A DNA stretch of 64,000 nucleotides from an uncultured Anaerolineae bacterium (GTDB lineage Bacteria; Chloroflexota; Anaerolineae; Aggregatilineales; Phototrophicaceae). Both the position numbers and the translations under genes were made by a program. Every line of letters starts with the position of its first letter. Position 1 is the first letter of the stretch. The notes below the pieces were generated by a model. That model worked only from the letters and a program-made list of their open reading frames with translations, was not told where the DNA came from and ran no database searches. The stretch is taken from positions 62,001-126,000 of the forward strand of contig CALDYP010000017.1 of the NCBI GenBank assembly GCA_937944445.1, in the 5' to 3' direction. Below, piece after piece: positions 35,453-60,371 of the stretch.

Positions 35453-35487
35453 AAACGGGTGACCGAAAAGTCACCCGTTTGTTTTTG
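35453..35487. terminator. Bidirectional intrinsic terminator between gyrA and rplY
   Basis: AAACGGGTGAC (35453-35463), loop CGAAAA, GTCACCCGTTT (35470-35480): an 11-bp perfect stem followed by GTTTTTG on the plus strand and by a TTTTTG tract on the minus strand, so it can serve both convergent genes. Confidence 0.9.
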
Positions 35488-35500
35488 CGGGGGCAGCAGC

Positions 35501-36103
35501 CTAGTTGGCAGCCGCGGCTTCGGCTTCTTTGGCGGCGGCGGCGCGCTGTGCGCCGGTCTGGATGGCCTTTGCGACGATCTCATCGCCTTCGTTGAGGATG
35601 GTCACGCCGGGCGGCGGGGTGATGTCCTTGATGTAAATCGTGGAGCCGATGGCCGTCAGCGGCGCAAGGCTCACCTCAATCTTGTTCACAAGGTCGCGCG
35701 GCAGCGTCTCGATGCGGATCGTGCTCGTGCCCGCCATCAGGATTGCCTTGCGCGTGGCGATGATTTGGCTCTCGCCCACCAGCATGACCGGCACTTCAGC
35801 GCGAATCTTGCTATTTTCGTCCACAGCGAAGAAGTCCACGTGCTTGATCGTGCTCTTGAGGATGTCGCGCTGCACGTCACGGGCGAGCGCGCGGATGGTT
35901 TGGCCGTTGAAGTGAATATCAATGATGTTGGTGCTGCCAGCGGCGCGCAGCAGCAGCTCCAGTTCACGATAGGCAAACTGAACCGTTATCGGCTGCGTTT
36001 TGGGGCCGTAGATCGTGCCCGGCACCAGCCCTTGATTGCGAAGGCTAGATACCTTCTTGCCAGTGATAGCGCGCTCTTGCGCGTTGAGGACAAATTCAGA
36101 CAC
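35501..36103 (-). CDS. rplY: 50S ribosomal protein L25 (TL5/CTC family)
   Basis: 200-residue 5S-rRNA-binding protein of the long TL5/CTC class. The N-terminal L25 domain is seen in FVLNAQERAITGKKVSSLRNQG and VPGTIYGPKTQPITVQF, continuing with DIHFNGQTIRALARDVQRD; the C-terminal TL5 domain includes VPVMLVGES and LPRDLVNKIEVSLAPL. It ends in an Ala/Glu-rich tail. GTG 36103 is chosen because AGGAG lies 8 nt upstream; the open frame extends 20 codons further without support. It is monocistronic and converges on gyrA. Confidence 0.93.
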   Translation of the reverse strand: MSEFVLNAQERAITGKKVSSLRNQGLVPGTIYGPKTQPITVQFAYRELELLLRAAGSTNIIDIHFNGQTIRALARDVQRDILKSTIKHVDFFAVDENSKIRAEVPVMLVGESQIIATRKAILMAGTSTIRIETLPRDLVNKIEVSLAPLTAIGSTIYIKDITPPPGVTILNEGDEIVAKAIQTGAQRAAAAKEAEAAAAN

Positions 36104-36203
36104 CTTGCTCACTCCTGCTTTAGCCCACTTGGGCGCATAGTCTCGCTTGACAAAACTTCGCAATCATAGCGGTGAGCGGGGCGTTCGTCAATCCAGCGCC
36201 CAA

Positions 36204-36231: not shown

Positions 36232-36234
36232 CTG

Positions 36235-36306
36235 AGCGGGCGATGGGACTCGAACCCACGACGTTTTGCTTGGGAAGCAAACATTCTACCACTGAATTAC
36301 ACCCGC
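36235..36306 (-). tRNA. tRNA-Gly, anticodon CCC
   Basis: A full cloverleaf can be folded: acceptor stem GCGGGTG/CGCCCGC, D-arm ATTC-AGTGGTA-GAAT, anticodon arm TTTGC-TTCCCAA-GCAAA with CCC at positions 34-36, variable ACGTC, and a T-arm with the TTCGAGT loop. It decodes GGG. CCA is not encoded (TCA follows), so it must be added enzymatically. Confidence 0.95.
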
Positions 36307-36546: not shown

Positions 36547-37569
36547 TTGGAACAGTCTCGTCGTATGCGCGTGGGGCTGCTGGGAATCGTCATCAGCGGC
36601 CTCGCAATTGCGTTTATTGCGTCACAAATTCAGCTTGAGGCCTTCGGTCAAGCGCTGCTAAAAGCCAATTACGTTTATGTCATCCCGTGTTTGCTGTTTT
36701 TGCTGCTGGGGTTGGTGGCGCGGGCACTGCGCTGGCGTGCCCTGCTGGCGGAGCGGCTGCCGCTGCTGCGCGTGTTCAGCATCATGAACGTGGCGTACTT
36801 GGTGAATGGTGTGCTGCCGCTGCGCTTGGGCGAGGTGGCGCGCGTCTTTTTGATGTCGCAGGTCGAGGACGGCAAGGTCCCCCCGATGCGGATCATCAGT
36901 TCAATCGTCGTCGAGCGTCTGCTAGACTTGCTAGCCGTGGTGCTGATGGTGCTGGTAGGGTTGGCGTTTGCGCCCGTGCCGGACGAGCTGCGCGCAGCGG
37001 GCGGCGTAGGTGCGGCGATGGTGACAGTCGGCTTTTGTGGGTTGATCGTCGCGGCGGCCAACCGCCGCTGGCTGCACCGCTTGCACGATTGGCTGGCGCG
37101 GGGCGTGCCGCCGTTGGGGCGGGAGCGCCTGCGCGTGTGGCTCGATCAGTTTCTTGATGGCGTCGCGCCGCTAACGCAGTGGCGTTCCGCGCTGCGCTTG
37201 GTGGGCTGGACGGCGCTGAGCTGGTCGCTCTCGATCGTGGCTGGGTATTTCCTGATGGTGGCGGTGTTCGGCGCGGGCGATTGGTTGGCGACAGCGCTTT
37301 ACATTGCGGCGGCGGCCTTTGCGATTGCTGTGCCGGCCGTGCCGGGCAATTTGGGAACGTATGAGTGGTCAATCGTGGTGGCGCTGCAAGCGCTCGGCTA
37401 TGGCGACTTTAGTCGGCTGGCGGCGTTTGCGCTGCTCGTCCACGCGGTAAATGTGTTGGTGCATGCGGCGACTGGCGTCGTGGGCATGTTCCAAGAAGGG
37501 GTAACGCTGGGGCAGCTCCAGCGCGGCGTGCGGCAGATGCGCGGCGCAAAGGGTGAATATGCAGGCTAA
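36547..37569 (+). CDS. LPG-synthase-TM / AglD-like flippase-related membrane protein
   Basis: 340 residues with seven or eight helices and the hallmark pattern of the lysylphosphatidylglycerol-synthase TM family (UPF0104): LLLGLVARALRWRALL, VAYLVNGVLPLRLGEVARVFLM, SSIVVERLLDLLAVVLMVLVG and, late, VPAVPGNLGTYEWSIV. There is no aminoacyl-transferase domain. Related proteins are archaeal AglD and bacterial proteins encoded near glycolipid genes; a role in moving or adding lipid-linked sugars is inferred. TTG 36547 follows GAGGGAG by 4 nt; ATG 36565 is an alternative. First gene of the glycosylation operon, overlapping the next by 11 nt. Confidence 0.8.
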   Translation: MEQSRRMRVGLLGIVISGLAIAFIASQIQLEAFGQALLKANYVYVIPCLLFLLLGLVARALRWRALLAERLPLLRVFSIMNVAYLVNGVLPLRLGEVARVFLMSQVEDGKVPPMRIISSIVVERLLDLLAVVLMVLVGLAFAPVPDELRAAGGVGAAMVTVGFCGLIVAAANRRWLHRLHDWLARGVPPLGRERLRVWLDQFLDGVAPLTQWRSALRLVGWTALSWSLSIVAGYFLMVAVFGAGDWLATALYIAAAAFAIAVPAVPGNLGTYEWSIVVALQALGYGDFSRLAAFALLVHAVNVLVHAATGVVGMFQEGVTLGQLQRGVRQMRGAKGEYAG

Positions 37570-38722
37570 ACGTCGTTTGAAAATTCTCATCAGCTTGTTG
37601 TACTACTATCCGCACCGCACCGGCCTCACAATCCACGTGCAGAGCGTGGCGGAGGAACTGGCGCGGCGCGGCCACGAGGTGACCGTGCTCACGGCGCGCT
37701 ATCACCCGAGCTTGCCGCGCGATGAGGTCGTGCACAACGGTGTGCGCATCATCCGCTTGTGGGCCCCTATCCAGATCAGTCGTGGGATGCTCATGCCGGC
37801 CTTCCCGTGGGCGGCGTACTTCGCCATGCGGCAGGCCGACGTGGTCAGCATCCACACGCCAATGTTGGAGACGGCGCTCGTGGCCGTGTTGGCGCAGCTT
37901 GCAGGGGTGAAGATCGTGGCGACGCATCACGGCGATCTGGTGCTGCCGGAGGGGCGCTTCAACCGCTTCATCCGCGATGTGATGTTCCTGTTCTACCAAT
38001 TCATGGCGCGGCGGGCAGGCCAGCTCATCGGCTACAGCCAAGACTACGCCGAGAACTCGTACTACCTCAAGCCGTTTCTGGACAAGACGACGGTGATCTA
38101 CCCGCCGATTTTCATGCCGCCACCGCGCCCGGAGCGGGTGGCAGCGTTGCGCGCGGAGTGGGGCGCGGGTGGCCCGATCATCGGCTACCCCGGTCGCTTC
38201 GTCGAGGAAAAACGGCCTGACCTTGCGATCCGCGCGCTGGAGGTTGTCAATCAACACTGTCGCAACGCGCGGCTGGTGTTCGCTGGGCAGTACGATATCC
38301 CTTATGAGAACACGTGGCAGCGCTTGCAGCCGCTGGTGCAGCAGCACCGCGAGCAGTTGGTCTTCTTGGGGCTGCTGAGCGACCCGCAGGACATGGCCGA
38401 TTTCTACGCCGCGTGCGATGTGATGGTGCTGCCGAGCGACACGGAATGCTTTGCGCTGGCGCAGGTGGAATCGATGTTGTGCGGCACGCCGATGGTCATG
38501 ACGGACATCCCGGGCGGGCGTGTGCCGGTCACGGTCACGGGCATGGGCAAGCTCGCCAAACAAGGGGATGCACACGCCATCGGCGAGGCGATTGTGGAGG
38601 TGCTGCGCAACCGCGAGGCTTACGTCAAGCCGCGCGAGTTCATCGAGCAGTGTTTTTCGTTCAGCGAGACGGTGGATCGCTATGAAGAGGTGCTGCTGGC
38701 GCACGCGCGGAGGCGCTCATGA
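37559..38722 (+). CDS. GT4-family glycosyltransferase
   Basis: 387-residue cytoplasmic GT-B enzyme that transfers a sugar from a nucleotide donor. The N-terminal domain has LISLLYYYPHRTGLTIHVQSVAEELARRGHEVTVL (first part near residue 10). The donor domain has GYPGRFVEEKRPDLAIRALE and the classical nucleotide-sugar region LPSDTECFALAQVESMLCGTP, containing the E-x7-E motif. The glycine-rich GGAE-like loop seen in many GT4 enzymes is replaced by HRTGLTIH. ATG 37559 is spaced 6 nt from AAGGG; GTG 37553 is an alternative. It probably builds the lipid-linked glycan in the cytoplasm. Overlaps the methyltransferase gene by 4 nt. Confidence 0.88.
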   Translation: MQAKRRLKILISLLYYYPHRTGLTIHVQSVAEELARRGHEVTVLTARYHPSLPRDEVVHNGVRIIRLWAPIQISRGMLMPAFPWAAYFAMRQADVVSIHTPMLETALVAVLAQLAGVKIVATHHGDLVLPEGRFNRFIRDVMFLFYQFMARRAGQLIGYSQDYAENSYYLKPFLDKTTVIYPPIFMPPPRPERVAALRAEWGAGGPIIGYPGRFVEEKRPDLAIRALEVVNQHCRNARLVFAGQYDIPYENTWQRLQPLVQQHREQLVFLGLLSDPQDMADFYAACDVMVLPSDTECFALAQVESMLCGTPMVMTDIPGGRVPVTVTGMGKLAKQGDAHAIGEAIVEVLRNREAYVKPREFIEQCFSFSETVDRYEEVLLAHARRRS

Positions 38723-39573
38723 TCGACCCGCAGGTGATCGCCCACATGACGCGCAACGAGGCCGACATGGCCTTCAAGAAGCGTGTGCAGACGATCTTCG
38801 AGTGGGTGAACCCGACCGACGATATGACGATCCTTGATATGCCGTGCGGGCGCGGGTTCTACTTGAACATGTTTCGCTATGTGAGCCAGTGCCGCATCGT
38901 CGGCGCGGATCTGGATTGGAGCGTGCTGCAGAAGGCGCAGCGCAACGTCGGGCATCTCGATATTCCGATCCACAACGCCAACATCTACGCGCTGCCCTAT
39001 GCGGATGAGACCTTCGACGCGGTGATCTACAGCGAAGTGCTGGAGCACGTCGAGGACGATCAACAGGCGCTGCGCGAGGCCTATCGCGTGCTGAAGCCCG
39101 GGGGCGTGCTGGCTATCACCGTGCCGCACGCTGACTACCCGTTCTGGTGGGATCCGATCAATAAGACGCTGGAGTTTCTGTTCAATCGGCACATCGAGCG
39201 TGGGATGTTCGCGGGCATCTGGGCGAATCACGTGCGCCTTTACACGATGGACGAGCTGCGCTATCAGGTGCAATCGGCGGGGTTTGCGGTGGAAGCCGAA
39301 CGGCGCTTCACGCATTATTCGTTTCCGTTTATCCACAATCTGGTGTATGGTATCGGTATGCCGCTGCTGGAGCGGGGGGCGCTGCCAGCCAGCATGGCTA
39401 CAGCAGCCAACCGCCTGACGTTCGATCAAAACCGTGGAAGCCTGCTGAACCCGATCAACTTCGGGCTGGCGATCTTCAACTTGTTTGACCGTCCGAACAA
39501 ACTTGACGAGCCGGAAGGGCGTTCAACTGTCAACTTGGCGATGAAAGGGCGCAAGCCACATGCTGGACGATGA
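38719..39573 (+). CDS. Class I SAM-dependent methyltransferase
   Basis: 284 residues. SAM-binding motif I is ILDMPCGRGFYLNMF (about residue 36), the acidic end of strand 2 is VGADLDW, motif II region is FDAVIYSEVLEHVEDDQQAL, and post-II is VLKPGGVLAITVP: a Methyltransf_11-type fold. The C-terminal 90 residues are hydrophobic in part (FPFIHNLVYGIGMPLLERG) and may contact the membrane. Sandwiched between a GT4 enzyme and GT-C proteins with 4- and 14-nt overlaps, it may methylate a sugar or lipid carrier; ubiquinone/menaquinone-type or other small-molecule substrates are not excluded. Confidence 0.85.
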   Translation: MIDPQVIAHMTRNEADMAFKKRVQTIFEWVNPTDDMTILDMPCGRGFYLNMFRYVSQCRIVGADLDWSVLQKAQRNVGHLDIPIHNANIYALPYADETFDAVIYSEVLEHVEDDQQALREAYRVLKPGGVLAITVPHADYPFWWDPINKTLEFLFNRHIERGMFAGIWANHVRLYTMDELRYQVQSAGFAVEAERRFTHYSFPFIHNLVYGIGMPLLERGALPASMATAANRLTFDQNRGSLLNPINFGLAIFNLFDRPNKLDEPEGRSTVNLAMKGRKPHAGR

Positions 39574-42367
39574 CCGTCCAATCAGTGACATCCCCCTTGA
39601 GGATGACCAATTCGACACGCGCGAGAACGTAGCGCGGGTTGAACTCGTCGACGCGGCGGCGGCGCTGCGCGACTTTGAAGAGCTTGACCTCACGGTGGTG
39701 TTGGGGCAGTTTTTGCGGCGGCCCCGCGCCACAGCCGCCGCCCTGCGCCACGTGATTGCGCCGCAGTCCGCCCGCCGCGCTGAGCCGTTTGCGTGGGAGA
39801 TGCCGCCCGCTGCGCCAAGCCTGCCCGCTGCGCCCGCAGCAGAGGAAGCTGATCAGGCTGCAGCGCGGGATCGCCTTGCGCAGTTGGGGTTGTTCGGGCT
39901 GGCGTTTGGGTTGGCGCTGCGCGGGGCGCTGGTGATGGTGGCCAATCACCCGTTTCGCACAGAAAACCCGCAGCTCGTCGAAGGCGCGGGCTGGTTCCTG
40001 ATGGCGGCGCTGGTGTGGCTGATCGGTGAGCTGCTGCCGCATCGCCGGGCGATCTGGCAGCGGGCGCGCGCTAGCACGTGGCGCGGGCGTCTGCTGGTCG
40101 TGTGTTGGGTGCTGGTGGGGTGGTTAACGCTGCACGGCTTGAGCTTCTGGGCGGACGCGAGCGACGAAATTCTTGTGCTTCAGCGTGATACGACGTACAT
40201 CACTGCGATGATCCGGCAGGGGGCGCTCACGCTGCTGCTGGCAGGGGTGGCCGCGTTGATCGTCTGGGCGCGGCAGCGGCAGTGGTTCCCACCAGCGCCG
40301 ACCGCTGCCAATGAGATCCTCAGCGCGGAGTGGGATGTGCCGTGGTACATGCGCATTCACCCGCTGCGCCCGTTTTTGCTGCTCATCGGCAGCGCGCTGT
40401 GCGTCGTGACGTGGCTCAACACGGCCAACAACTTCATCACGGATGTTGGGATCGCGGCGTGGCTGAGCAGCGTGGGGACGGTGACGATGGCGTTTGCGCC
40501 GCGCCGCTGGTGGAACCTGCCTGCGCGCATCGCGGACAAGGCGCGAGCCGTGCGCCACGCCGAGTACAAGCGCTATGCGTGGGCTATCCTCGCGCTGAGC
40601 TTGATCGTGGCGGTGGGCGCGTTCTATCGGCTGCACAACCTGAACGGCTCACCTGAGAACTTGACGGCCATCCCACCCGAGATGACCAGCGACCACGTGG
40701 AGAAAATCCTCGACGCGCAGCGCGTGCGCGAGGGCAGCCGCAACATCTTCTTCGCCAACAACGGCGGGCGCGAGCCGTTCCAGATGTACGCGATGGCGGC
40801 GTTTGCGTCGCTGCCGGGGCAGGGGATGACCTACGAATCGCTCAAGCTGCTCAAGGTGATCGAAAGCATCCTCATCCTGCCGTTCATGTTCTGGCTGGGC
40901 TATGATCTGATGCGCACGGAGCGACCGCGCCTGCGCGTCCTCATCGGTCTGGCGCTGGCGGGGCTGACGGCGGTGAGCTTCTGGGATGTGACGATCACAC
41001 GGCTGGGGCTGCGGATCGTCTTGACGCCGCTCGTGGCGGCGGCGCTTCTGGTCTATCTGGCGCGGGCGATGCGCTCGAACGACATCGGCGACTACCTCAA
41101 GGTCGGGCTGGTGCTGGGCTTCGGGCTGTATACTTATCAGGCCGTGCGGATGATGCCAGTGGTGGTCGTGCTGGGGGCGGCGATGGCGCTGCTCTTCATC
41201 TGGAAGCACCGTCGGGCGCGGCTGCAGGTGGTCACTAACTTGGCGGCGCTGGTGGTCGTCTCTGCGGTGGCCTTCTTGCCGATGATCCACTACACGACGC
41301 AGTATCCGGAGCAGTTCCTGCAGCGCACCTTTGGCCGCCTGCTAGGGGACGACGTGATCGAGGAGCGGCTGCCAAATGGGCTTTTGGTGCTGCGCGAGGC
41401 AACTGTGGAAGAGCGCTTCAACGCCTTTGTTGAAAATCTGCCGGTGCTGTTCGGCAACGTGCGCAACGCGCTGTTGATGTTCCACTGGAAGGGCGATGTT
41501 GCGTGGATCAACAACTACCCCAACTATCCAGCGTTGGACGCATGGAGCGGGGCGCTGCTGCTGGTGGGGACGGTGGGTTGGCTGGCGCTGGCGTGGCGGC
41601 GACGAGACGTCGTTTACGCTATGATCCCGCTGGCGTTGGGGGTGATGCTGCTGCCGAGCGCGCTGTCCATCGCCTACCCGATCGAGAACCCGAGTTTTAC
41701 CCGCACGTCAGGCGCAATGCCGATGACGTACCTCATCGCGGCGCTGCCGCTGGCGCTCATGGCCGACGGGTTGGCGCGCCTGCGCGAATCTTCAGTCACG
41801 CGGATGTTAGGCGCAGTCGTGTTCATCGTGCCGCTGGCTGCCAGTTACACCCTCAACTTTGACGTGTACATGAACCGCTTTCCAGAGAGCTACCTCAACA
41901 ACTCGCTGCCGCACAGCGAGGGCGGGCGCATCGTGCGCGACTTCGTGGCGAGCGGCGGCTCGTTCGGCAACGCTTTCCTGATCGCCTACCCCAACTGGTG
42001 GGATCATCGCGCAGTGGGGCTGGCCGCGGGCATGGAAGACCGCTGGCCGAACGGCGTCTATGACCTCAACTTGAACGACAACCGCACGCGCGACGTGGAC
42101 TACGTGCCGGATTTCATCCAGACCGCGCTCAACGCGCCGCCCAAGTTCCGCTTTGACCCGAACCGCCCGATGCTCTTCTTCTACCATCGGGATGACCGCG
42201 CCACGAGCGAGCAGCTTCAGGCGTGGTTCCCACAGGGGCGGGAGGTCTTGCACGTCTCGTATCAGGTCGGTGACGACTTCAGGTACTTCGTCGCGCCGCC
42301 ATTGGGGGTGGACGGCCTGCAAGCGTTCTTGACAACTGCCACTAGCGTTGAGGAAACTCGCCCGTGA
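39560..42367 (+). CDS. GT39-like polytopic membrane glycosyltransferase with long cytoplasmic N-terminus
   Basis: 935 residues. The first 110 are soluble and acidic/Ala-Pro-rich; four helices follow, and then a GT-C core starting near YKRYAWAILALSLIVAVGAFYRL. The core loop has PPEMTSDHVEKILDAQRV followed by GREPFQMY, an arrangement typical of PMT_2/GT39 proteins of Chloroflexota. Eight or more helices and a C-terminal extracytoplasmic domain (YLNNSLPHSEGGRIVRDFV ... FYHRDDRATSEQLQAWFP) complete it. Expected to transfer a sugar from a polyprenyl phosphate on the outer face. Overlaps the methyltransferase gene by 14 nt. Confidence 0.75.
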   Translation: MLDDDRPISDIPLEDDQFDTRENVARVELVDAAAALRDFEELDLTVVLGQFLRRPRATAAALRHVIAPQSARRAEPFAWEMPPAAPSLPAAPAAEEADQAAARDRLAQLGLFGLAFGLALRGALVMVANHPFRTENPQLVEGAGWFLMAALVWLIGELLPHRRAIWQRARASTWRGRLLVVCWVLVGWLTLHGLSFWADASDEILVLQRDTTYITAMIRQGALTLLLAGVAALIVWARQRQWFPPAPTAANEILSAEWDVPWYMRIHPLRPFLLLIGSALCVVTWLNTANNFITDVGIAAWLSSVGTVTMAFAPRRWWNLPARIADKARAVRHAEYKRYAWAILALSLIVAVGAFYRLHNLNGSPENLTAIPPEMTSDHVEKILDAQRVREGSRNIFFANNGGREPFQMYAMAAFASLPGQGMTYESLKLLKVIESILILPFMFWLGYDLMRTERPRLRVLIGLALAGLTAVSFWDVTITRLGLRIVLTPLVAAALLVYLARAMRSNDIGDYLKVGLVLGFGLYTYQAVRMMPVVVVLGAAMALLFIWKHRRARLQVVTNLAALVVVSAVAFLPMIHYTTQYPEQFLQRTFGRLLGDDVIEERLPNGLLVLREATVEERFNAFVENLPVLFGNVRNALLMFHWKGDVAWINNYPNYPALDAWSGALLLVGTVGWLALAWRRRDVVYAMIPLALGVMLLPSALSIAYPIENPSFTRTSGAMPMTYLIAALPLALMADGLARLRESSVTRMLGAVVFIVPLAASYTLNFDVYMNRFPESYLNNSLPHSEGGRIVRDFVASGGSFGNAFLIAYPNWWDHRAVGLAAGMEDRWPNGVYDLNLNDNRTRDVDYVPDFIQTALNAPPKFRFDPNRPMLFFYHRDDRATSEQLQAWFPQGREVLHVSYQVGDDFRYFVAPPLGVDGLQAFLTTATSVEETRP

Positions 42368-42440
42368 CGGTGTATTTAACTACAGTAAATCATCTGCCCA
42401 CAAGCGCAGAAAGAGCGATGATTTGACGACGACAGCCAAC

Positions 42441-45400
42441 ATGACCACCTCGTTTTGGTCACGCCGCGCCGTGGTGTACCCTCTGCTGGCGCTGGTGGTG
42501 CTGTTGGGGGGGTATCTGCGCTACGTCGGCTTGAACTGGGACGACTTCAGCGGCAGCCACCCCGACGAGCGCTTCTTGACGATGAACCTGCTGCCGCTGG
42601 TGGGCGGTGGCCTTGAGTTCACCAACGACCCCAACAACTTCCCCGCGCAGCGCCTGCTCACGCGCGCCAACGGCAACGTGAGCCGCGCCTCGCTCATGAG
42701 CGACCCTGATCTGACGTTGGGCGTGCTGCGCGGCTCCAAAAGCGAGTCGTTCGCGCGCTACCTCGTTCAGAGTGGGCGGGTGATGGTTTACAACGACCCT
42801 GATTCAGCCGTGGCTGACGTGGCCGCCGGACGCGTCGATGCGCTGCTAGTGGACGTGGGCGTGCCGCTCAACCTGCTGCCGATTACGGATGGGACGGTCA
42901 ACAGCTTTGAGCAGCTCACATCGGAAGAGATTCAGCGCATGCGCTGCCTGACGCTGCACCCGTCCACGGGCGGCGTGGGCGGCTTCTTTGACGCTCGCTG
43001 TTCGAACCTCAACCCGCACAACAGCGGGGCGGGCTTCTACGCTTACGGCACGCTGCCGCTGTTCATGGCCTACGCGGGGGTGCAGGCGCACCGCGAGTTG
43101 GAGCAAATCGCGCCCAACCTTTTCGAGTGGCCCGGTCAGGCGGTGATCTGGCGCTTCTTGAGCGCGTTCTTCGACGTGGGGACGATCATCTTTGTGTTCT
43201 TCACAGGGTCGCGGCTGCACAACCGCTGGGCGGGGCTGGTGGCGGCGCTGCTCTACGCGGTCGCCCCGCTGGCGATTCAAAAGGCGCACTTCGGCACGGT
43301 GAACGCCATCACTGCCTTTTGGGTGGCGCTGGCGCTGTGGGCAGCGGTCGGCGTGCAGGATCGCGGGCGGTACTTCTACTATGCGGTGTTTGGCGTAGCG
43401 TTCGGCTTCGCGCTGGCGGGGCGGATCAACCTGCTGCCGCTGGTGGGCGTGGTCGGGCTGGCGATGATCGTCTACACGCTGCCTGCGCTGGATCGAGCGC
43501 TGCCGGCCACGATCCGCACGCGGATGATCTCGCGGGCGGTGAGTGGGCTGCTGCTGGCGGGCTTCATGACGGTGCTCGCGTTCCGATTGGCCAACCCGTA
43601 TGCGTTTCAGGGGCCGAGCTTCTTCGGCCTGCTGCCCAACGATCGCTTCTTGGCTGACATCGCCAGCGCCCAATTCGGCGTGAGCGGGGCCAGCGACGCG
43701 CCGCCCAACTACCAGTGGGTGGGACGAATGGACTATCTCTACCCCCTCAAAGACATCTTCCTGTGGGGGATGGGGATCGCGCCCGCGCTGCTGGCGTGGT
43801 TCGGCTGGGCGTGGGCGGGCTGGCAGTTGATCGCGCGGCGGCTCGGCTCCACGCGCAACTTGTTCCTGTTCGCGTGGGTGCTGGTGTACTTCGGCTTCAT
43901 GGGCCAGCAGTGGGTGATGACCATGCGCTACTTCCTGCCGCTCTACTCAGCGCTGGCGCTGCTGGGCGGCTGGGCAATTGTCGAACTTGTCCGCCGTGCC
44001 CACCACGAGCCGATGGCGATCACGCGCTGGCTGTTAGGGGCGTTGAGCGTGACGCTGCTGCTCATCCCGACGTACTACGCGGTCAACGGGCTGGCGTTTG
44101 ATCAAACCGTTGTGACGGCGGGTGCGCTGGGCGCATTGTTGGGTGTGGGGGCGCTGCTGCCGATGGCTGTCTGGCGAGCGCGGCTGTTGGGGGCGTTCAC
44201 GGTAGGGTTTGCGGCGCTGTGGGGGCTGATGTTCACCAACATCTACCGCAACGACCTCACGCGCGTGGAGGCCAGCCGCTGGGTCTTCGAGCAGATCTCT
44301 TCAGACTTTTCGATGCGGATCGAGGGCGCGCCTGAGGGCACGCCGCTGATCAACATCGCCATCCCGAACATGAACCCGAACAGCGCCTTGAACGCCGCCG
44401 ACTTGTTGAACGGGGCGTCGCGCTTGTTCGTGAACCAGCCCTACTTGATGGAGTTCGTCGCGCCCGCCGACGGCGTGATCTTGGAGGTGTTTGCGCCGCA
44501 CATCGGCGCAGTCAACGACAACGGCGAGCCGCGCAGCTTGTACGTGTCGCTCTCCAAGCGCGACGAGCGCGGCGACATGGTGCTGCTCTCAGAGGAAATC
44601 CTGACCAGCCCGTTCCTGCGCGATCACCACGTCTTGGGCGATGCCTACACGATCACGCTGACGCAGCCGGTCGTCGTCACGCGCGGGCAGGCCTACACCT
44701 TCAAAGTCGAGGCGCTGACGGACGCGCTCGTGACGGGGCAGGTGGTCGTCACGGAAGGCGACTGGGACGACCGCATCACGACGATCATGGTGTGTCGTCT
44801 GCCGTTCGAGGTCACCGAGCGGGCGAACTTGCCGTCAGGGCTGGTGAGCTTTAACGAGTGTAACGGAATGCGCTCGGCCAATGCGCACGTCGATTCCTAC
44901 GACACGGCGATGTCCTACCCCATCGACGACGCGCAGAAGCGCGACAGCATGCGCTTCGGGCTGCACAACGGCGATTACTTCATCTCGACGAGCAACCGCT
45001 TCTACGACACGACCGCGCGCAACGACTTCCGCTTCCCGCTGACCAACCGTTTTTACCGCGCGTTGTTCGCGGGCGAGTTGGGCTATGAGGTGGTGGCAGT
45101 CTTCCGTGAGGGGTATGCATTTGCAGGGCTAGAGGTGTCGGATCAACACCTGCCCACGTTCCGCTCGCCGCTGTGGTTCAACGAGTTTGAACCGGATGAG
45201 GCGTTCCACGTGTACGATCACCCGGTGGTGTACGTGCTCAAGAAGCGCGCCGACTACGATCCGGCGCTGGTGGACGCCTTCTTCGACAGCTACCCGCTGA
45301 CGCAGAGCAATCAGCTCGTCTTCGACAGCGACCCGGGCGCGCAGATCATCGGCGTCGTCTACTGGGACAGCTTGACGATGGACGCCGCCCCCAACGGCTT

Positions 45401-50731: not shown

Positions 50732-50793
50732 GGAACGCGCAGGAATCGGGGGTATATAGGGTAGTGTCTGAACAACGCAGCGTTGAGTATTTT

Positions 50794-52755
50794 ATGCAGT
50801 CAACTTTTCCAGCAGAGCCAGTTCCATCAACGGAGCGCGTTCGCGCAGTGGCCGTGCCGATGGAGTGGCTCGTCTACGTGGTGCTGATCGTGGGCATGGT
50901 GGCGCTGCGCTTTGCGGAGTTGGACACTGCGCCGATGAGCGACGTCGAGGCATCGCAGGCGCTGATTGCGTGGGATGCGGTCTATGGGCGCGATGCCGCT
51001 GTGGCGCGCCCCTCTGATCAGCCGCTGACCTTCTACGCGCAGGTGCTGGGGCTGTCGACTGGCAGCACGGGCGAGACAGGCGCGCGGGCGGGCGGCGCTG
51101 TGGCAGGGGTCGCGCTGGCGCTGTTGGCGCTGCTGTTCCGCCGTCGGATCGGGCGCGTGCAGACGCTGCTCTTGACGCTGCTGTGGGGCTTCTCGCCGGT
51201 GGCGCTGGCGGCCTCGCGCACGTCCGACCCCGCGATCTGGTCGGCGATGTTCGGCGTCCTCGCGCTGTGGGCGGGGTGGAACTTCCACGAGCGGCGGCGC
51301 ATCGTAGATGGCACGGCGGCGCTGGTTTTCGTTTGCATATTGGTGTTCCTGTCTGGCCCCTACGGCCTGATGGCAGCGCTGATTTTGGCGGCGGCGCTGG
51401 CTGTGAGCGTCTACCTCACGGCGCTGAACGCCCCCATCGACGAGCAGCGCCCCGGCGAAGAAGTGCTGGAGGCGGCGCGCGCCGCATTTTGGGAACTGCC
51501 GTTTCGGCGCGGGCTGGGGCTGGGTGTGCTGTTAGTAGTGTTGACGGCGACGGCGTTCCTGCTCCAGCCGGATGGGCTGACGATGGTTGGCGCGTCGTTG
51601 GAGAGCGCGCTGCGCGGCCTGACGCAGCCGCCGTTGGGGCCGGCTGTGCCTGCGCCGGCGCTGTTGGCGGTGGCGCTGTACGAACTGGGCGCGGTGGTGC
51701 TGGGCATAGGCGGGTATATCCTGCTCCAGCGCTTTGAGCGCGTTCACTTTGCAGATCGATTTGCCCTGATGGTGGTGGTCATCGCTGCGCTGGTGGCGCT
51801 GCTCTATCGCGGGGCGGGGCCGGGCTTTGCGCTGTTCATGGCGCTGCCGCTGGGCTGGCTGTGCGCGCGCGTGGTGGCGCGCATGCTGGTCGACGAGAGC
51901 GCCATCACGTACTGGGATCTGGTGAGCGACAGCGCGGCGGTGAGCGAGGCGCGGCATGGCTGGGTGAAGTGGATGCTGGCGCTCGTGCTGATCGGCCTGC
52001 TGGCGATGATCGGCACGCACTGGCAAGAAGTCGCCCGCAGCTTGTTGAGCTTTTCCCCGGCGGTGTCGCTGTTCGACAACTTGCCGCGTTTCTTCACGTT
52101 CCCATCGAACGGGGTGCGCAGCCTCGTGTGGGTGGTGATGTCGCTGTTGTTTACGGTGGTGGGCGCGTTCCTCGTGGCGAGCATCTGGGGCAATCGGATC
52201 ACGCTGCAAGGGGTGGCGCTGGGGCTGTTTGGCTTCACGTTGGTGTCGGGCGTGGGCGGCGGCTGGAACGCGGTCGTCGTTCGGGCGCACCAGCCGGTAG
52301 AGATCTGGCAGGCGAGCTATGTGCAGCCGAATGCTCAGCTGCTGCGCGAGACGCTGCATGAGGTGGCGCGGTTCACCGCGCGCGGAGAACCGGTGCTGCG
52401 CGTAGCAGTGGTGCAAGACCCCGACATCGGCCTTGTGAACGATGGGGTGGTGGGGTGGTTGCTGCGCGAGTTTCGCTATGCGCGGTTTGTGCAGTCGATT
52501 CCAGAGGCCGCACGCGAGGAAATCATCATCGCACGGCGCACCGCGGAGGAAATTGATCTGGGCGGCAGCTACGTTGGCCAGAGCTTTACCCTGCGGCGCG
52601 GCCAGCAGCTTCTCAATGTGCCCGTCTACGACTGGGCGGCGTGGCTGGCGCAGCGGCGGACGCGCGACATGACCCCCGCGCGCGACAGCGTCATCTTGTG
52701 GGTGCGGCTTGACCTGTACAATTCGGTTCCTGTTGATTTGGCACAGCGACGTTGA
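50794..52755 (+). CDS. Polytopic membrane protein, GT39-like, unknown
   Basis: 653 residues, about ten helices. The first helix (WLVYVVLIVGMVALRFAEL) and first loop with MSDVEASQALIAWDAVYG keep the acidic residue pattern of GT-C proteins, followed by QPLTFYAQVLGLS and a helix pair with LLLTLLWGFSPVALAASRTSDP. The C-terminal 180 residues are extracytoplasmic and carry no recognised domain. The start is uncertain: ATG 50794 has only a weak GAG-type site, GTG 50764 gives 10 more residues. Directly upstream of the ECF sigma gene (19 nt) in the same transcription unit. Confidence 0.62.
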   Translation: MQSTFPAEPVPSTERVRAVAVPMEWLVYVVLIVGMVALRFAELDTAPMSDVEASQALIAWDAVYGRDAAVARPSDQPLTFYAQVLGLSTGSTGETGARAGGAVAGVALALLALLFRRRIGRVQTLLLTLLWGFSPVALAASRTSDPAIWSAMFGVLALWAGWNFHERRRIVDGTAALVFVCILVFLSGPYGLMAALILAAALAVSVYLTALNAPIDEQRPGEEVLEAARAAFWELPFRRGLGLGVLLVVLTATAFLLQPDGLTMVGASLESALRGLTQPPLGPAVPAPALLAVALYELGAVVLGIGGYILLQRFERVHFADRFALMVVVIAALVALLYRGAGPGFALFMALPLGWLCARVVARMLVDESAITYWDLVSDSAAVSEARHGWVKWMLALVLIGLLAMIGTHWQEVARSLLSFSPAVSLFDNLPRFFTFPSNGVRSLVWVVMSLLFTVVGAFLVASIWGNRITLQGVALGLFGFTLVSGVGGGWNAVVVRAHQPVEIWQASYVQPNAQLLRETLHEVARFTARGEPVLRVAVVQDPDIGLVNDGVVGWLLREFRYARFVQSIPEAAREEIIIARRTAEEIDLGGSYVGQSFTLRRGQQLLNVPVYDWAAWLAQRRTRDMTPARDSVILWVRLDLYNSVPVDLAQRR

Positions 52756-52774
52756 GGGGCGAGAGTAACGCACG

Positions 52775-53383
52775 ATGAACCCTGTTGACCCGACACTGCA
52801 CGAAGAAGAGCCGACGCTCAGCCAGATTGCCAGCGCGATCAAAGGCGATCAAGCGGCTTATCACGCGCTGTATGAGCGCTTTGCCAGCGGCGTCTATCGG
52901 TTGTGCTTCAGCCTTGTGCTGGACGAGGCGGATGCCGAGGACGTGACACAAGAATCGTTTGTGTATGCTTTCCGCAATTTGAAGAAGTATGACCCGCGCA
53001 AGGCCGCGTTCAAGACGTGGCTGTACACGATTGCTGTCAGCCGCTGTCGCAACGTCTACCGTCGGCGCAGCCTGTCGCTGGTGGGCCTGTCGCAGATCTT
53101 GTTCGATGTGCCCGCGCCTGAATCAGAAGCGCCGGAGGCTTGTGCTGCGCGCAAAGCCGCTGCCGAGGCGATCACGGAGGCGCTGGCGCGGCTGTCCCCG
53201 CAGCTGCGCGAGGCGGTGGTGCTGCGCTATGGGCACGGGCTGACGTACCGTGAAATTGCTGAGGTGATGGGCTGCCCGCCTAAAACCGCCGAGAGCCGCG
53301 TGCGCGTGGCGCAGGAACAGCTGCGGCATTTGCTGCGTGGCAATGGGCCGAGCTTGCTGGATGAACTGTTGAGGTTGGCTTAA
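52775..53383 (+). CDS. ECF-type RNA polymerase sigma factor
   Basis: 202 residues with region 2 (YHALYERFASGVYRLCFSLVLDEADAEDVTQESFVYAFRNLKKYDPRKAAFKTWLY, around residues 26-82; the DAEDVTQE core polymerase contact is clear) and region 4 (LSPQLREAVVLRYGHGLTYREIAEVMGCPPKTAESRVRVAQEQL, around 140-185, a helix-turn-helix for the -35). It directs RNA polymerase to its own regulon in response to an envelope signal. The next gene, abutting it, encodes the zinc-finger anti-sigma factor. Its position inside the glycosylation operon suggests it controls surface-glycan genes, possibly including its own operon. Confidence 0.93.
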   Translation: MNPVDPTLHEEEPTLSQIASAIKGDQAAYHALYERFASGVYRLCFSLVLDEADAEDVTQESFVYAFRNLKKYDPRKAAFKTWLYTIAVSRCRNVYRRRSLSLVGLSQILFDVPAPESEAPEACAARKAAAEAITEALARLSPQLREAVVLRYGHGLTYREIAEVMGCPPKTAESRVRVAQEQLRHLLRGNGPSLLDELLRLA

Positions 53384-53887
53384 ATGTGGAATGGGTGGAA
53401 GATCCGGTGTCGCTTCACGCGGGTGTGGCTGGGCAGCTACATTCGGCGCGAACTACCTGCTGCGCCGCGCGCGTATGTGGCGCGCCACCTGCGGGATTGT
53501 CCACAGTGTCGGGCGCGTTATGAAGAGCAGGCACAGGCAGTGCGCGAGCTGTCGCAGGATTTGACAGCGCTGGGGCGGCCAAAGCGGCCACGTCTAGAAT
53601 CGATCTGGCGCGGCGTTCAGCATAACCTCGCCCAGCCCGCGCCGACGGTAGGCCTGTCACAGGTGTACACGGCGATTGCGGTGACGACGTTCTTGATGAT
53701 GATTTTGGTGGGCAGCAGCCGCCACGGCATGCCCGCTCTGCGGCTAGCCAACGATCCGCCGCCTGTGGCGCGCCTCGCGCTGACGCCGACGCCCAACAGC
53801 TTGCCTGAAATGCCACTTGAAGCGCCTAGCACCCTGCCCGCGCGGCTGGTGCTCCAAAACACGCCGAACACGTCTCAATCTGAATAA
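53384..53887 (+). CDS. Zinc-finger (zf-HC2) transmembrane anti-sigma factor
   Basis: 167 residues: an N-terminal cytoplasmic zinc-binding anti-sigma domain with Cys9 and the H-x3-C-x2-C motif in ARHLRDCPQC, one membrane helix (VYTAIAVTTFLMMILVG) near residue 100, and a short Pro/Thr-rich extracytoplasmic tail. It should hold the sigma factor encoded just upstream (its ATG abuts that stop, TAAATG) until a signal from outside the membrane releases it. The small extracytoplasmic part suggests that another protein, or membrane state, provides the signal. Confidence 0.85.
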   Translation: MWNGWKIRCRFTRVWLGSYIRRELPAAPRAYVARHLRDCPQCRARYEEQAQAVRELSQDLTALGRPKRPRLESIWRGVQHNLAQPAPTVGLSQVYTAIAVTTFLMMILVGSSRHGMPALRLANDPPPVARLALTPTPNSLPEMPLEAPSTLPARLVLQNTPNTSQSE

Positions 53888-53898
53888 GAGGGTTGTGC

Positions 53899-56800
53899 AT
53901 GTCCTATCATCCTGTAGAAACTGATCAAAACCCCGTGGACACTTGGCTGGGGCGGCGGTTGCAAATTAACTGGGAAGTGGCGATCTACATCCTCATCTTG
54001 GTGATCGCCATCCTGACGCGCTTCATGCACTTGGGCGACCGCGTGATGAGCCACGACGAGAGCTTGCACACGCGCTTCTCGTGGAACCTCTACCACAGCG
54101 GCAACTTTCAACACACGCCGTTGATGCACGGGCCGATCCTGTTCCATATGGTGGCGTTGAGCTATTCGATCTTCGGGGACAGTGACTTCTCCGCGCGCGT
54201 GTACACCGCTGTCGTGGGCGTGATGATGGTCATGTCGCCGCTGCTGTTCCGCTACTGGCTCAAGCCGTGGGGGACGATCCTCGTCTCAATCGGCATCTTG
54301 ATCTCGCCGCTGCTGATGTACTACCACCGCTACATCCGAGAAGACACGCCCACGATCATGGCGGGGATCCTCATGCTCTGGGCGATTTTGATGTACTTGA
54401 GCGGGCCGCCAAGCGTGCGCCACAAACCGTACTGGTACTACGTGCTGGCGTTCGGGATGATCTGGAACCTCGGCACGAAAGAGACGGCCTTCATGGACGT
54501 GGCCATCCTTGGCATCTTCCTTGCGCTGTTCTGGTTCGTGCGGATGGGCCAGTACTTCATGGCACAGCGCCAGCTCGTCTTTAACGCCAAGCGGGCGTTC
54601 TTGCTGCTGGCGTTCGGGGGGATGTTGGGCGCGGTGATGTCGCTGGGGACGTATATCGTGCTGGATGTGATCCAGTTCGATATGTTCAACCCGCCGCCCG
54701 GAACGGCTTTTCACGAGATGCCCGCTGTTCAGCAAACCACCTACTTCCTGTGGACGGGGCTAGTGGTGCTGGTGATGCTCTTCACCATCATCTCAACCGC
54801 TGCATGGGGCTACTTCAAAGCGGGGCGGCGCGGCTTGCCGTGGGGGCAGATCGCCTTCATGGCCGGGATCATGCTGGCCAGCGGCTTTGCGCTGGTGATC
54901 GTGGAGGAACTCTCGCACACGACGCAAGGCCGACCGGACGCCGTCGCGCAGCCGCTGCGGTGGTTCCCGCTAGTGGCGACGTGGGTAATCTGTATCTTGG
55001 CCTGCGCGTTTTTCATCGTGTTCCGTCGGCGGCCCGGCGATGTGCCTGCTGACCGCACCACGCAAACGCGCGGCACGGGCTTGTGGGGCTTCCTCGATCT
55101 GTTCCCTGAGTTCAGCCTCATGGTCGTCATCGGCACGCTGATTCTGCCGTGGGCGGCAGCGCTCATCCCTTACGTGATGAGCGGCACAACGGACGACTTT
55201 GCGGTGATTGGCCGCTCATTAGAGCCGCTGGCAAGCGTCGTGCGCACGCTGCCCAACCCATCGATTAGCTCCGGGGAGAATATCTGGCAGGATTATCAAG
55301 TGGGGCAGGTGCTGTTGGGCTTCATGGCGTGGCTGCCGCTGTTCATCACGATGATCGTGATCGGTGTGTCGTGGAACGCGCGGCAGTGGCTCATCACGGC
55401 GGCGATCTTCCACACAATCTTTGTCTTCTTCTTTACGACGATGTTCACCAACTTGTACGGCCTGATGACGGGCATGTACTACAGCTTGGGCTACTGGCTG
55501 GAGCAGCAAGGCGTGCGCCGCGGCAGCCAACCGCAGTACTATTACCTGCTCGTCGTCATGCCAATTTATGAGTTCTTGGCGATTGCAGGCAGTGTGGGCG
55601 CGATGTTCGCCGGGTTGACGATCTTCTGGAGGCGCGCCGCCGAGGAGGACAAAGCTGAGGACGAGCTGGAAGAACAGATCGTCAAAGAAGCGGGCAAGAG
55701 CAAGCGTCAACCCCTCGCTTATGAGGCTGATACCGAGGAGTGGCGGGCAGATGAGCTAATTGAACACGCCTCACCGTCATCGGATGAAGCGCCTTCAGAC
55801 GAAGCGCTGGACACGATCGACCCGCGGGTGATGGCGCGCGCGGAGACGCTCGCTGAGACGGGCAGCGCGGCCCACTCCATCGACAGCATCGAGCGTCTGT
55901 ACGCCCTGCGCGAGTCGCAGCGGCTGGAAGAGCTGCCCTTCCTCATCACGTGGGGCTGGGTGGCGGTGTTCAACTTGATTCTGCTCACGCTGGCGGGTGA
56001 GAAGATGCCGTGGCTGGCCACGCACATGACGCTGCCCATGCTCTTCATCACTGGTTGGTTTGTGAGTCGGATTGTGGTCAAGCTCGACTTGAAGGAGTTC
56101 ATCCAGCGCGGTTGGGTGCAGGTGCTGCTCATCGTGGTGATCATCATCGCGGGCTTGCGCGTGATCGGGCCGTTCGTCATCGGTGATGCGCCGTTCCGCG
56201 GCTTGGAGACGGCTCAACTGCGCGCCACGAACAACTGGCTGCTGGCGGTGGCTGGGTTGGCGGTGGCGTCGATCTTGCTAACGCGGCTTTCCGTCAGTTG
56301 GGCGGCCACGCGGCGGCTGATCGCGGTGGGCTTCTTTGGGTTCCTCGCGTTCCTGACGGCGCGCTCGGCGTGGATGGCCAGCTTCATCAACTACGACCAT
56401 CCAACTGAGTATCTGGTTTACGCGCACAGCGCCCCAGCGGTGAAGACGGTGCTCGACATGATCGACGAACTCAGCCTGCGCATCACCGACGGCAATGAGC
56501 TGGTGTTCGCCTACGACAATGAGGTGTCGTGGCCGTACAGTTGGTACTTCCGCAACTATCCGCGGGCTGTCTTCTTCGACACCACGCCGACGATCCAGCG
56601 CTTGCAGGATGCGATCGTCGTCATCGCTGGGGATGGCAACCGCGCCCGTGTGGAGGCGATCATCGAGGATCGCTACCAGCACTATCGTTTCGTGCGCATG
56701 TGGTGGCCGACTGAGGACTACAAGTTCCTGACGGTGGATCGGATCAACAACTTGTTCGACTTCGACCCGGCCAACGCAGCAGCGGCACAGGTGCGGCGCG

Positions 56801-58035
56801 GCATCTTCGACATCTGGTGGGCGCGGGATTACACGCAGTTCGGCTTGGCCGTGGGCAAGGACTTTAGCCTGCCGCGCTGGCCGGTGCAGAACGCGATGAA
56901 CGTGTGGATCCGCAAAGACGTGGTGGCGCAGATTTGGGCCTTTGGCACGGGCGATGGCACAGTGGAGAATCCGCTCGATAACCTGCCGGTGAATCAATGC
57001 AACGCCAACTTCCAAGACTTGCAGCCGATCCAAGTGCTAACAAGCGCGCCGATCCCGTTAGCGCGCCCGCTGGCGATGGCTTTTGGCCCGGATGGCAACC
57101 TCTACGTGGCAGAAGAGGGCAACCATCGCATCAGCGTGTTCGACCCGAGGACAGGCGCGTATCTGACGAGCTACGGCACGGCGGGGTCATCCCTTGACAG
57201 CTTGGAGTTGAACCGCCCCAACAGCCTCACCTTTGACCAGAACGGCAGCCCGATCATCGTTGACACGTGGAACTTCCGCATCAAGCAGCTGTCGCCGGAC
57301 TTCTCAGAGATTGGGACTGTGTGGGGGCAGATGGGCTTGTACGGCTTGAACGCGCCGACCGTGCCAACGGACGGCTTCTGGGGGCCGCGCGATGCCAAAG
57401 TGGACGCGCGCGGGCGCGTGCTGGTGATGGACACAGGCAACAAGCGCCTGCGCGTGTACGAGATCGTCGACGGGGTGGCTGTGTGGAGCTTCGACATTGG
57501 GCGCGGCGGCAGCGGCCCCGGCGAGCTGGACGAGCCGACGAGCTTGGTGATCCATCCGGTGGATGGGCGCATCTTCATCGCCGACATGTGGAACCAGCGG
57601 ATTGCCGTGTTCACCGCCGATGGCCAGTTCTTGACGAACTATCCGGTGCGGGCGTGGTCGCAGAAGACGGGCAACGCGCCATATCTAGCGCTGGACGTGA
57701 ACCGCAACCTGCTCTACGCGACTGACCCGGACGCGGGGCGGGTGCTGGTCTACACGATCGACGGCGAATGCGTCGGCTCGTTCGGGTCGCTCGCGCTGAC
57801 TTCGGGCGTGTCTAATCAGTTTGGGTTGGCCAGCGGCATTGCGGTGGACGATCAAGGCTTTGTATACGTGTCAGATGCGGCGCTGGGGCGCATCCTCAAG
57901 TTCCAGCCGTTCCCTGTGCAAGGGGCAGCCGCTGAACCCATAATCGTGCCGTTGATGCTGGAAGACGTTATGCCCCCCATAGAGGAGGCGACTGCCGAGC
58001 TGACCGCTGAGGCTCAGGCAACGGCAGCCGAGTAA
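53899..58035 (+). CDS. TIGR03663/Agl23-like GT-C membrane protein fused to a six-bladed NHL propeller
   Basis: 1378 residues. The N-terminal half has the TIGR03663 pattern: helix EVAIYILILVIAILTRFMHL, first loop RVMSHDESLHTRFSWNLYHSG with the acidic GT-C residues, HTPLMHGPILFHM, and some ten helices. A charged cytoplasmic linker (about 575-670) and further helices follow. The C-terminal 320 residues hold six NHL blades (starts near LARPLAMAF at 1055, LNRPNSLTF, FWGPRDAKV, LDEPTSLVI, APYLALDV, FGLASGIAV), enough for a closed propeller, then an Ala/Glu/Thr tail. The propeller would lie outside the membrane and could bind protein or glycan. ATG 53899 is spaced 6 nt from AGAGGG. Last gene of the operon. 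Confidence 0.82.
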   Translation: MSYHPVETDQNPVDTWLGRRLQINWEVAIYILILVIAILTRFMHLGDRVMSHDESLHTRFSWNLYHSGNFQHTPLMHGPILFHMVALSYSIFGDSDFSARVYTAVVGVMMVMSPLLFRYWLKPWGTILVSIGILISPLLMYYHRYIREDTPTIMAGILMLWAILMYLSGPPSVRHKPYWYYVLAFGMIWNLGTKETAFMDVAILGIFLALFWFVRMGQYFMAQRQLVFNAKRAFLLLAFGGMLGAVMSLGTYIVLDVIQFDMFNPPPGTAFHEMPAVQQTTYFLWTGLVVLVMLFTIISTAAWGYFKAGRRGLPWGQIAFMAGIMLASGFALVIVEELSHTTQGRPDAVAQPLRWFPLVATWVICILACAFFIVFRRRPGDVPADRTTQTRGTGLWGFLDLFPEFSLMVVIGTLILPWAAALIPYVMSGTTDDFAVIGRSLEPLASVVRTLPNPSISSGENIWQDYQVGQVLLGFMAWLPLFITMIVIGVSWNARQWLITAAIFHTIFVFFFTTMFTNLYGLMTGMYYSLGYWLEQQGVRRGSQPQYYYLLVVMPIYEFLAIAGSVGAMFAGLTIFWRRAAEEDKAEDELEEQIVKEAGKSKRQPLAYEADTEEWRADELIEHASPSSDEAPSDEALDTIDPRVMARAETLAETGSAAHSIDSIERLYALRESQRLEELPFLITWGWVAVFNLILLTLAGEKMPWLATHMTLPMLFITGWFVSRIVVKLDLKEFIQRGWVQVLLIVVIIIAGLRVIGPFVIGDAPFRGLETAQLRATNNWLLAVAGLAVASILLTRLSVSWAATRRLIAVGFFGFLAFLTARSAWMASFINYDHPTEYLVYAHSAPAVKTVLDMIDELSLRITDGNELVFAYDNEVSWPYSWYFRNYPRAVFFDTTPTIQRLQDAIVVIAGDGNRARVEAIIEDRYQHYRFVRMWWPTEDYKFLTVDRINNLFDFDPANAAAAQVRRGIFDIWWARDYTQFGLAVGKDFSLPRWPVQNAMNVWIRKDVVAQIWAFGTGDGTVENPLDNLPVNQCNANFQDLQPIQVLTSAPIPLARPLAMAFGPDGNLYVAEEGNHRISVFDPRTGAYLTSYGTAGSSLDSLELNRPNSLTFDQNGSPIIVDTWNFRIKQLSPDFSEIGTVWGQMGLYGLNAPTVPTDGFWGPRDAKVDARGRVLVMDTGNKRLRVYEIVDGVAVWSFDIGRGGSGPGELDEPTSLVIHPVDGRIFIADMWNQRIAVFTADGQFLTNYPVRAWSQKTGNAPYLALDVNRNLLYATDPDAGRVLVYTIDGECVGSFGSLALTSGVSNQFGLASGIAVDDQGFVYVSDAALGRILKFQPFPVQGAAAEPIIVPLMLEDVMPPIEEATAELTAEAQATAAE

Positions 58036-58166: not shown

Positions 58167-60017
<1,851 letters not shown>

Positions 60018-60027
60018 AGGCGCAGCG

Positions 60028-60291
60028 ATGAACAGCCGCCCCAAACATACGCCAATTCGCACGTGCGTTGTGTGCCGTGAGAAGAGCGGCAAACGCACGC
60101 TGACGCGGGTCGTGTACAGCGAGACAGGCCTTGTAATTGATCTGACGGGCAAAGCGCATGGCAGAGGGGCGTATCTGTGTGATAACCCTGACTGCTGGCA
60201 GCGAGCCGCGACAACGGACGTGCTGGCGCACGCGCTGCGAGTGCGGCTGACCGCCGACGACCGCGAGCGGATACGGCAGCGCGTCGTATGA
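60028..60291 (+). CDS. rnpM: YlxR/RnpM family RNA-binding protein
   Basis: 87 residues with the family pattern: HTPIRTCVVCREKSGKRTL (CxxC pair), VDL-like VIDLTGKAHGRGAYLC and a helical end. In Bacillus this protein binds RNase P and modulates its activity; here it occupies its usual place between nusA and infB. The longer symbol ylxR is an accepted alias. A 28-nt hairpin separates it from infB. Confidence 0.92.
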   Translation: MNSRPKHTPIRTCVVCREKSGKRTLTRVVYSETGLVIDLTGKAHGRGAYLCDNPDCWQRAATTDVLAHALRVRLTADDRERIRQRVV

Positions 60292-60312
60292 ACCACCGAA
60301 TCTATTACGCAC

Positions 60313-60340
60313 GGTAAGCAGGGCGGTTGCCTTGCTTACC
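60313..60340 (+). promoter_or_regulatory. Long hairpin between rnpM and infB
   Basis: GGTAAGCAGGGC (60313-60324), loop GGTT, GCCTTGCTTACC (60329-60340): a 12-bp stem with one G-U pair and a tetraloop, ending 31 nt before the infB ATG. No U-run follows, so control of infB translation or mRNA processing is more likely than termination. Confidence 0.65.
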
Positions 60341-60371
60341 TCCTGCTGAAACAGCAATGGAGAAGGAAAGC

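Follow-up and report, generated by a model that had tools for sequence, protein, structure and literature searches.

The ten-gene cluster described here probably serves the assembly of a surface glycan that depends on polyprenyl phosphate, with an ECF sigma factor encoded in the cluster driving parts of the machinery together with uppS, the gene of the polyprenyl-carrier synthase. It occupies positions 36547-58035 of the window, the 64,000-nucleotide stretch of DNA from an uncultured Anaerolineae bacterium that was analysed as a whole. In the pathway that we envisage, a GT4 enzyme and a methyltransferase would make or modify lipid-linked sugars in the cytoplasm, and an LPG_synthase_TM protein, Agl23 or both would help to carry them over the membrane. 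At the outer face a 935-aa protein, a giant protein with two GT-C modules, a DUF2298 protein, a divergent Agl23 and an Agl23-NHL protein would then add sugars from polyprenyl-phosphate donors. The sigma factor, held by a membrane-anchored anti-sigma factor, would recognise the motif T[G/A]AGGA[A/T]-N14-GTGTA and, once freed, activate the giant-gene segment and the segment that runs from the divergent Agl23 gene through sigma and anti-sigma to the Agl23-NHL gene, its own gene included. It would also activate uppS, so that the lipid carrier would be made alongside the glycan machinery. We infer the pathway, its enzymatic activities, the donor and the identity of the product as a surface glycan from the genes described below. 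Chloroflexota is a phylum with a poorly understood cell surface, and a GT-C fold for DUF2298 together with a sigma regulon that includes uppS would replace a conserved unknown by a concrete model of envelope glycan synthesis that can be tested.

Gene layout and conservation of the neighbourhood

The earlier note had described ten closely packed genes on one strand, and this layout holds: ten forward-strand open reading frames span 36547-58035 at the coordinates first given, and their junctions are overlaps or gaps of at most 73 nt when the giant gene is started at ATG 42441. An alternative TTG start of the giant gene at 42348 lies upstream of a promoter-like site at 42349-42379, and the gene called from 50674 probably begins at ATG 50791. 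The cluster is flanked on one side by gyrA (32923-35445) and, on the minus strand, by the gene of ribosomal protein L25 (35504-36163, PF01386) and a tRNA-Gly (36234-36306), and on the other by nusA (from 58167) and infB (from 60327), which together cover 58167-62177. A forward-strand open reading frame at 35459-36169 was discarded as spurious; the minus strand there codes for the L25 protein with its PF01386 match. The placing of nusA 131 nt past the end of the cluster, followed by infB, is shared by many relatives from the same family; elsewhere in the order nusA lies several kb away or was not seen.

Many genomes share this arrangement of genes, with proteins that are about 40-50% identical, which indicates that the layout is not due to chance. 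The order compared is probably the Aggregatilineales of the Anaerolineae, since the named relatives are Anaerolineae and two of them are labelled Aggregatilineales. Within this order the giant gene lies just upstream of the DUF2298 gene in 15 of 16 loci, a gene of the 50791 type comes next in 17 of 18, and the genes for sigma, anti-sigma and Agl23 are contiguous in 13 of 16. The corresponding counts for the named loci (L103-L154) are 41/41, 41/42 and 34/37. The earlier note had set a neighbourhood comparison as the test that could overturn its proposal, and the genes were found to travel together, both within the order and, for the core, across the class. Outside the order the giant-DUF2298 pair is kept in 13 of 14 loci and followed by a 50791-type gene in 11 of 14, and no orthologous sigma gene was found near this core in the loci compared, suggesting that the sigma switch is a lineage-level addition and not part of the ancestral pathway.

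Both TIGR03662 (Chlor_Arch_YYY, the DUF2298 family) and TIGR03663 (Agl23) score above their cut-offs in the cluster, and the two co-occur far beyond it. Of 150 genomes of the class, 147 carry TIGR03662, among them all 102 good-quality ones, and in a sample of 91 genomes of the phylum strong matches to both families occur in 60 and to neither in 31, a perfect co-occurrence. The two are found together in all near-complete genomes sampled of the class and also in some archaea, as seen in the control genomes Haloferax and Methanosarcina, and DUF2298 is functionally unassigned in the literature that we found, a search for a functional paper on DUF2298 or TIGR03662 having returned none. What is new for this family is the model-based evidence on its fold and the evidence on its regulation. 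Proteins of 2500-2700 aa with two TIGR03662 regions were also seen in the phylum sample (for example in G250, G282 and G258).

Proteins encoded by the cluster

Profile searches of the proteins against Pfam and NCBIfam bore out the names given to the LPG_synthase_TM, GT4, methyltransferase, ECF sigma, anti-sigma and Agl23-NHL proteins and to the two DUF2298 regions. The first gene (36547..37569, forward strand, like all ten) encodes the LPG_synthase_TM or AglD-like, flippase-like membrane protein (PF03706, 3.5e-43; TIGR00374, 62 bits against a cut-off of 43). It is followed by the gene of the cytoplasmic GT4 glycosyltransferase (37553..38722; Glyco_trans_1_4, Glyco_trans_4_4) and that of the SAM-dependent methyltransferase (38719..39573; Methyltransf_11, 1.2e-22). 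Neither a GT-A synthase of C55-P-sugars nor a flippase of the GtrA or Wzx kind was found within the cluster.

Most of the remaining proteins are of the GT-C type, a view on which structural and profile-profile comparison agree. The 935-aa protein (39560..42367), previously named as GT39-like, has no Pfam or NCBIfam match of its own, as is also true of the N-terminal half of the giant protein; the name is nevertheless supported by its family, in which 40 of the 45 aligned members match PMT_2, and by its structural model. An AlphaFold2 model built from an alignment of the window protein and related proteins has a mean pLDDT of 85.7, and all 14 of its Foldseek matches in the PDB with E<=0.001 are GT-C enzymes, among them yeast Stt3, ArnT, AglB, PglB and Pmt4, with Emb proteins just below this threshold. 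The giant gene (42441..48044) encodes a fusion of an N-terminal GT-C module with a C-terminal DUF2298/TIGR03662 module (TIGR03662, 448 bits), and is followed by the gene of the DUF2298/TIGR03662 protein proper (48041..50731; 425 bits). The AlphaFold2 model of the latter, from the same kind of alignment, reaches a mean pLDDT of 92.8 and matches only GT-C enzymes at E<=0.001 (STT3, DPY19), with AftA and ArnT at weaker E values. As the Foldseek TM-scores are low for both models (0.3-0.5), these comparisons support the fold class and not the reaction: the DUF2298 and 935-aa proteins are supported by their models as having a GT-C glycosyltransferase fold, and sugar transfer by them is predicted.

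The protein of the gene at 50791..52755, which had been left as another polytopic protein, could be resolved as a divergent, GT-C-type paralogue of Agl23. Its direct scores are below cut-off (TIGR03663, 17.1 bits against 126.25; PMT_2 also weak), and hhalign aligns it to the Agl23 profile at 99.9% (8.6e-35). The last gene (53893..58035) encodes Agl23 (TIGR03663, 178.4 bits against 126.25) joined to an NHL beta-propeller (PF01436). A sequence search of the PDB gave no informative match for the DUF2298, 935-aa, giant and 50791 proteins; only the NHL part was matched. Profile-profile comparison further shows that the six GT-C-type modules of the cluster form three paralogous pairs: the 935-aa protein and the giant N-half (hhalign 97.7%, 2.5e-12), the giant C-half and the DUF2298 protein (100%), and the 50791 protein and Agl23 (99.9%).

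The conserved acids of these modules sit in the first outer loop. Invariant are D378, E381 and D385 of the 935-aa protein (45 sequences), the HPDE motif of the N-terminal and E1147 of the C-terminal module of the giant protein, E139 of the DUF2298 protein and the HDES motif of Agl23-NHL, and E53 of the 50791 protein is conserved in at least 90%. D160 of the DUF2298 protein is invariant as well. GT-C enzymes with acidic outer-loop motifs act on surface polymers in the multi-component transmembrane glycosylation systems of Gram-positive bacteria (PMC8035078), and the cluster resembles these three-component systems in its polyprenyl-phosphate-sugar donors, flippase and acidic-loop GT-C transferases, which are here predicted from the genes. 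It differs from them in having six GT-C-type modules, the DUF2298 family and the two-module giant protein included, in lacking a GT-A synthase and a GtrA flippase within the cluster, and in having a dedicated ECF switch.

Transfer, transport or N-glycosylation

Agl23 of Haloarcula restores and performs the translocation of lipid-linked oligosaccharides, as shown in vitro (PMC11182771), so that both transfer and transport are possible for this family. Several of the GT-C-like proteins, Agl23 above all, might accordingly be flippases or scramblases of lipid-linked sugars, and the cluster mainly a transport hub; the divergent paralogue of Agl23 at 50791 and the flippase-like LPG_synthase_TM protein that opens the cluster would both suit such a role. 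We consider this unlikely: a GT-C transferase requires just such acids as are invariant in the outer loops here (HDES, HPDE, EKPM, SDHVE), and no flippase activity is reported for the DUF2298 and PMT_2-like modules.

The earlier note had also spoken of archaeal-type parts. This part of it stands in that Agl23 (TIGR03663) and DUF2298 (TIGR03662) are shared with archaea, Haloferax and Methanosarcina included, and the AglD-like protein and the likeness in fold of the GT-C modules to STT3/AglB could likewise be read as signs of an Agl pathway for protein N-glycosylation in the archaeal style, either transferred to Chloroflexota or shared with them, and ending in an oligosaccharyltransferase. No such enzyme was found, however: the STT3/AglB family PF02516 has 0 matches in the bacterium's own genome, which is 81% complete, and among 28 good genomes of the order only partial, marginal matches of at most 34 bits were seen, as cross-hits from GT-C proteins would give. 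A strict archaeal-type N-glycosylation is therefore not supported, and we regard it as quite unlikely. The likeness to the Agl22/Agl23 genes of Haloarcula hispanica lies in the Agl23 family itself, to which the protein at 53893 belongs by its above-cut-off TIGR03663 score; the differences are the C-terminal NHL propeller of Agl23, its place beside DUF2298 and ECF genes, and the lack of a detected AglB. For assembly of a surface glycan by GT-C transferases, which we prefer to both of these readings, the next line of evidence comes from the regulatory genes.

The ECF sigma factor and its predicted promoters

The sigma gene (52775..53383) encodes an ECF sigma factor with regions 2 and 4 (PF04542, PF08281; TIGR02937, 100 bits against a cut-off of 43), whose orthologs form a set at E<1e-45 that is well apart from other sigma factors. 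The anti-sigma gene follows at 53384..53887, and its product combines a zf-HC2 domain (HLRDCPQC; PF13490, 7.9e-07) with one predicted transmembrane segment (residues 89-112); the zinc motif is lost in some relatives. In the literature we found nothing that directly links ECF sigma factors, Chloroflexi and glycosyltransferases.

Inspection by eye of the regions upstream of the relatives' sigma genes revealed the two-box motif T[G/A]AGGA[A/T]-N14-GTGTA, which often begins on the preceding stop codon. A position weight matrix (PWM) was built from 25 of these sigma-gene sites, the sites before the giant, LPG_synthase_TM and uppS genes being outside the training set. It found sites before the sigma gene in 48 of 53 loci (a count that includes the 25 training sites), before the giant gene in 27 of 90 (20 of 44 where the sigma gene is in the locus) and before the LPG_synthase_TM gene in 3 of 14, compared to 2 of 262 control genes of the same loci. 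At scores of at least 15 the forward strand gave 94 matches, the reverse strand 7 and reversed sequence 3; since the genomes are related, these counts are not independent.

In the window, one predicted ECF-type promoter, TGAGGAAACTCGCCCGTGACGGTGTATTTAA (42349..42379, forward strand; PWM 22.4), precedes the giant gene. A second, TGAGGAACGCGCAGGAATCGGGGGTATATAG (50729..50759, forward strand; PWM 17.9), stands before the segment of the 50791, sigma, anti-sigma and Agl23-NHL genes, and its TGA is the stop codon of the DUF2298 gene. No site lies directly before the sigma gene in the window; the site is displaced to 50729, ahead of the 50791 gene that immediately precedes sigma, and would make the sigma factor autoregulatory.

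From co-location and co-absence we predict that the motif is the target promoter of the cluster's ECF sigma, which would bind it directly. An alternative is that the motif is a housekeeping promoter or serves a different regulator, with the ECF pair a passenger, as might be read from genomes in which the pair is found elsewhere: L173 has it between the giant and DUF2298 genes, and in family f55 it is separated from DUF2298. It is precisely in such genomes that the motif moves with the relocated sigma gene (G153 and G185, and L173 with a weaker first box). The motif is also rare genome-wide, it is missing from the cluster and from uppS in G177 and G192, where the cluster is kept and the sigma and anti-sigma genes are absent, and its two-box shape and spacing suit an ECF sigma factor. 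We therefore hold the passenger explanation to be very unlikely and retain the cluster's own sigma as the probable reader of the motif.

The proposal of one sigma-controlled operon stands only in part. Predicted sigma target promoters do lie inside the cluster, and a single ten-gene operon would fit the layout, but the sites at 42349 and 50729 are internal and the sigma-anti-sigma-Agl23 unit is relocated in family f55, which speaks against a single transcript as the full account and hence against one simple operon. Relocation of this unit to a locus apart from DUF2298 was seen in G154, G185, G199 and G153 (families f55 and f54), and in L173 (8779-9895, a Chloroflexi contig) the pair lies between the giant and DUF2298 genes and not before Agl23.

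Sites at uppS and beyond the cluster

Genome-wide searches were made with exact motif patterns. Two such patterns have one match each in the bacterium's own 3.2-Mb genome, one before the giant gene, which is the sole exact match to GAGGAA-N14-GTGTA, and one before uppS (locus L250), where the site lies three bases past the frr stop codon and about 40 nt before uppS; the identity of frr was profile-checked in this locus only. Among 30 genomes a forward site stands before uppS (7) or, assigned by distance, before the frr-uppS pair (11), that is in 18 of the 30, and in their uppS loci no other forward match scored at least 9, compared to five on the reverse strand. The uppS site does not have the same position in all lineages, and several of its scores, at 10-14, are modest. 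With a stricter exact pattern, 61 genomes gave 41 matches against 5 for a reversed-pattern control, and a good part of the 41 adjoin the sigma or giant gene.

The presence of the motif both at the cluster and at uppS points to a sigma-linked regulon that would join glycan assembly to carrier supply, not to one simple operon. The claim of a sigma switch is in this way strengthened by the motif and also changed, as the predicted regulon extends past the cluster. A homeostatic control of undecaprenyl phosphate is known from Bacillus subtilis, where SigM promotes recycling of the carrier and releases it from polymers that are not essential (PMC11081497). SigM-YhdLK is similar in that an ECF sigma factor with a membrane-anchored anti-sigma is tied to the lipid carrier of surface glycans (PMC11081497); its regulon layout is unrelated, the predicted targets here being uppS itself and the glycan enzymes. 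The cluster would be another, independently arranged case of ECF control over the lipid-carrier economy. More tentatively, we suggest that DUF2298 may be a new GT-C family that builds a conserved outer glycan of Chloroflexota together with Agl23 and PMT_2-like partners, and that the ECF pair of one order may form a compact regulon with uppS which senses glycan or carrier status as its signal and matches polyprenyl-phosphate supply to demand.

A wider regulon was considered and rejected: in 17 genomes the exact matches outside the cluster numbered 14, near the control number of 9. Among these genomes the only outside matches that looked meaningful were at uppS (twice) and, in G127, at an LPG_synthase_TM gene and a UDP-sugar dehydrogenase gene. 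In that genome (L184, L217; contig G127:C5) the motif precedes a second LPG_synthase_TM gene, and another copy lies 149 nt before the UDP-sugar dehydrogenase gene about 4 kb away. G157 has a site similar to the first of these, the one before the LPG_synthase_TM gene.
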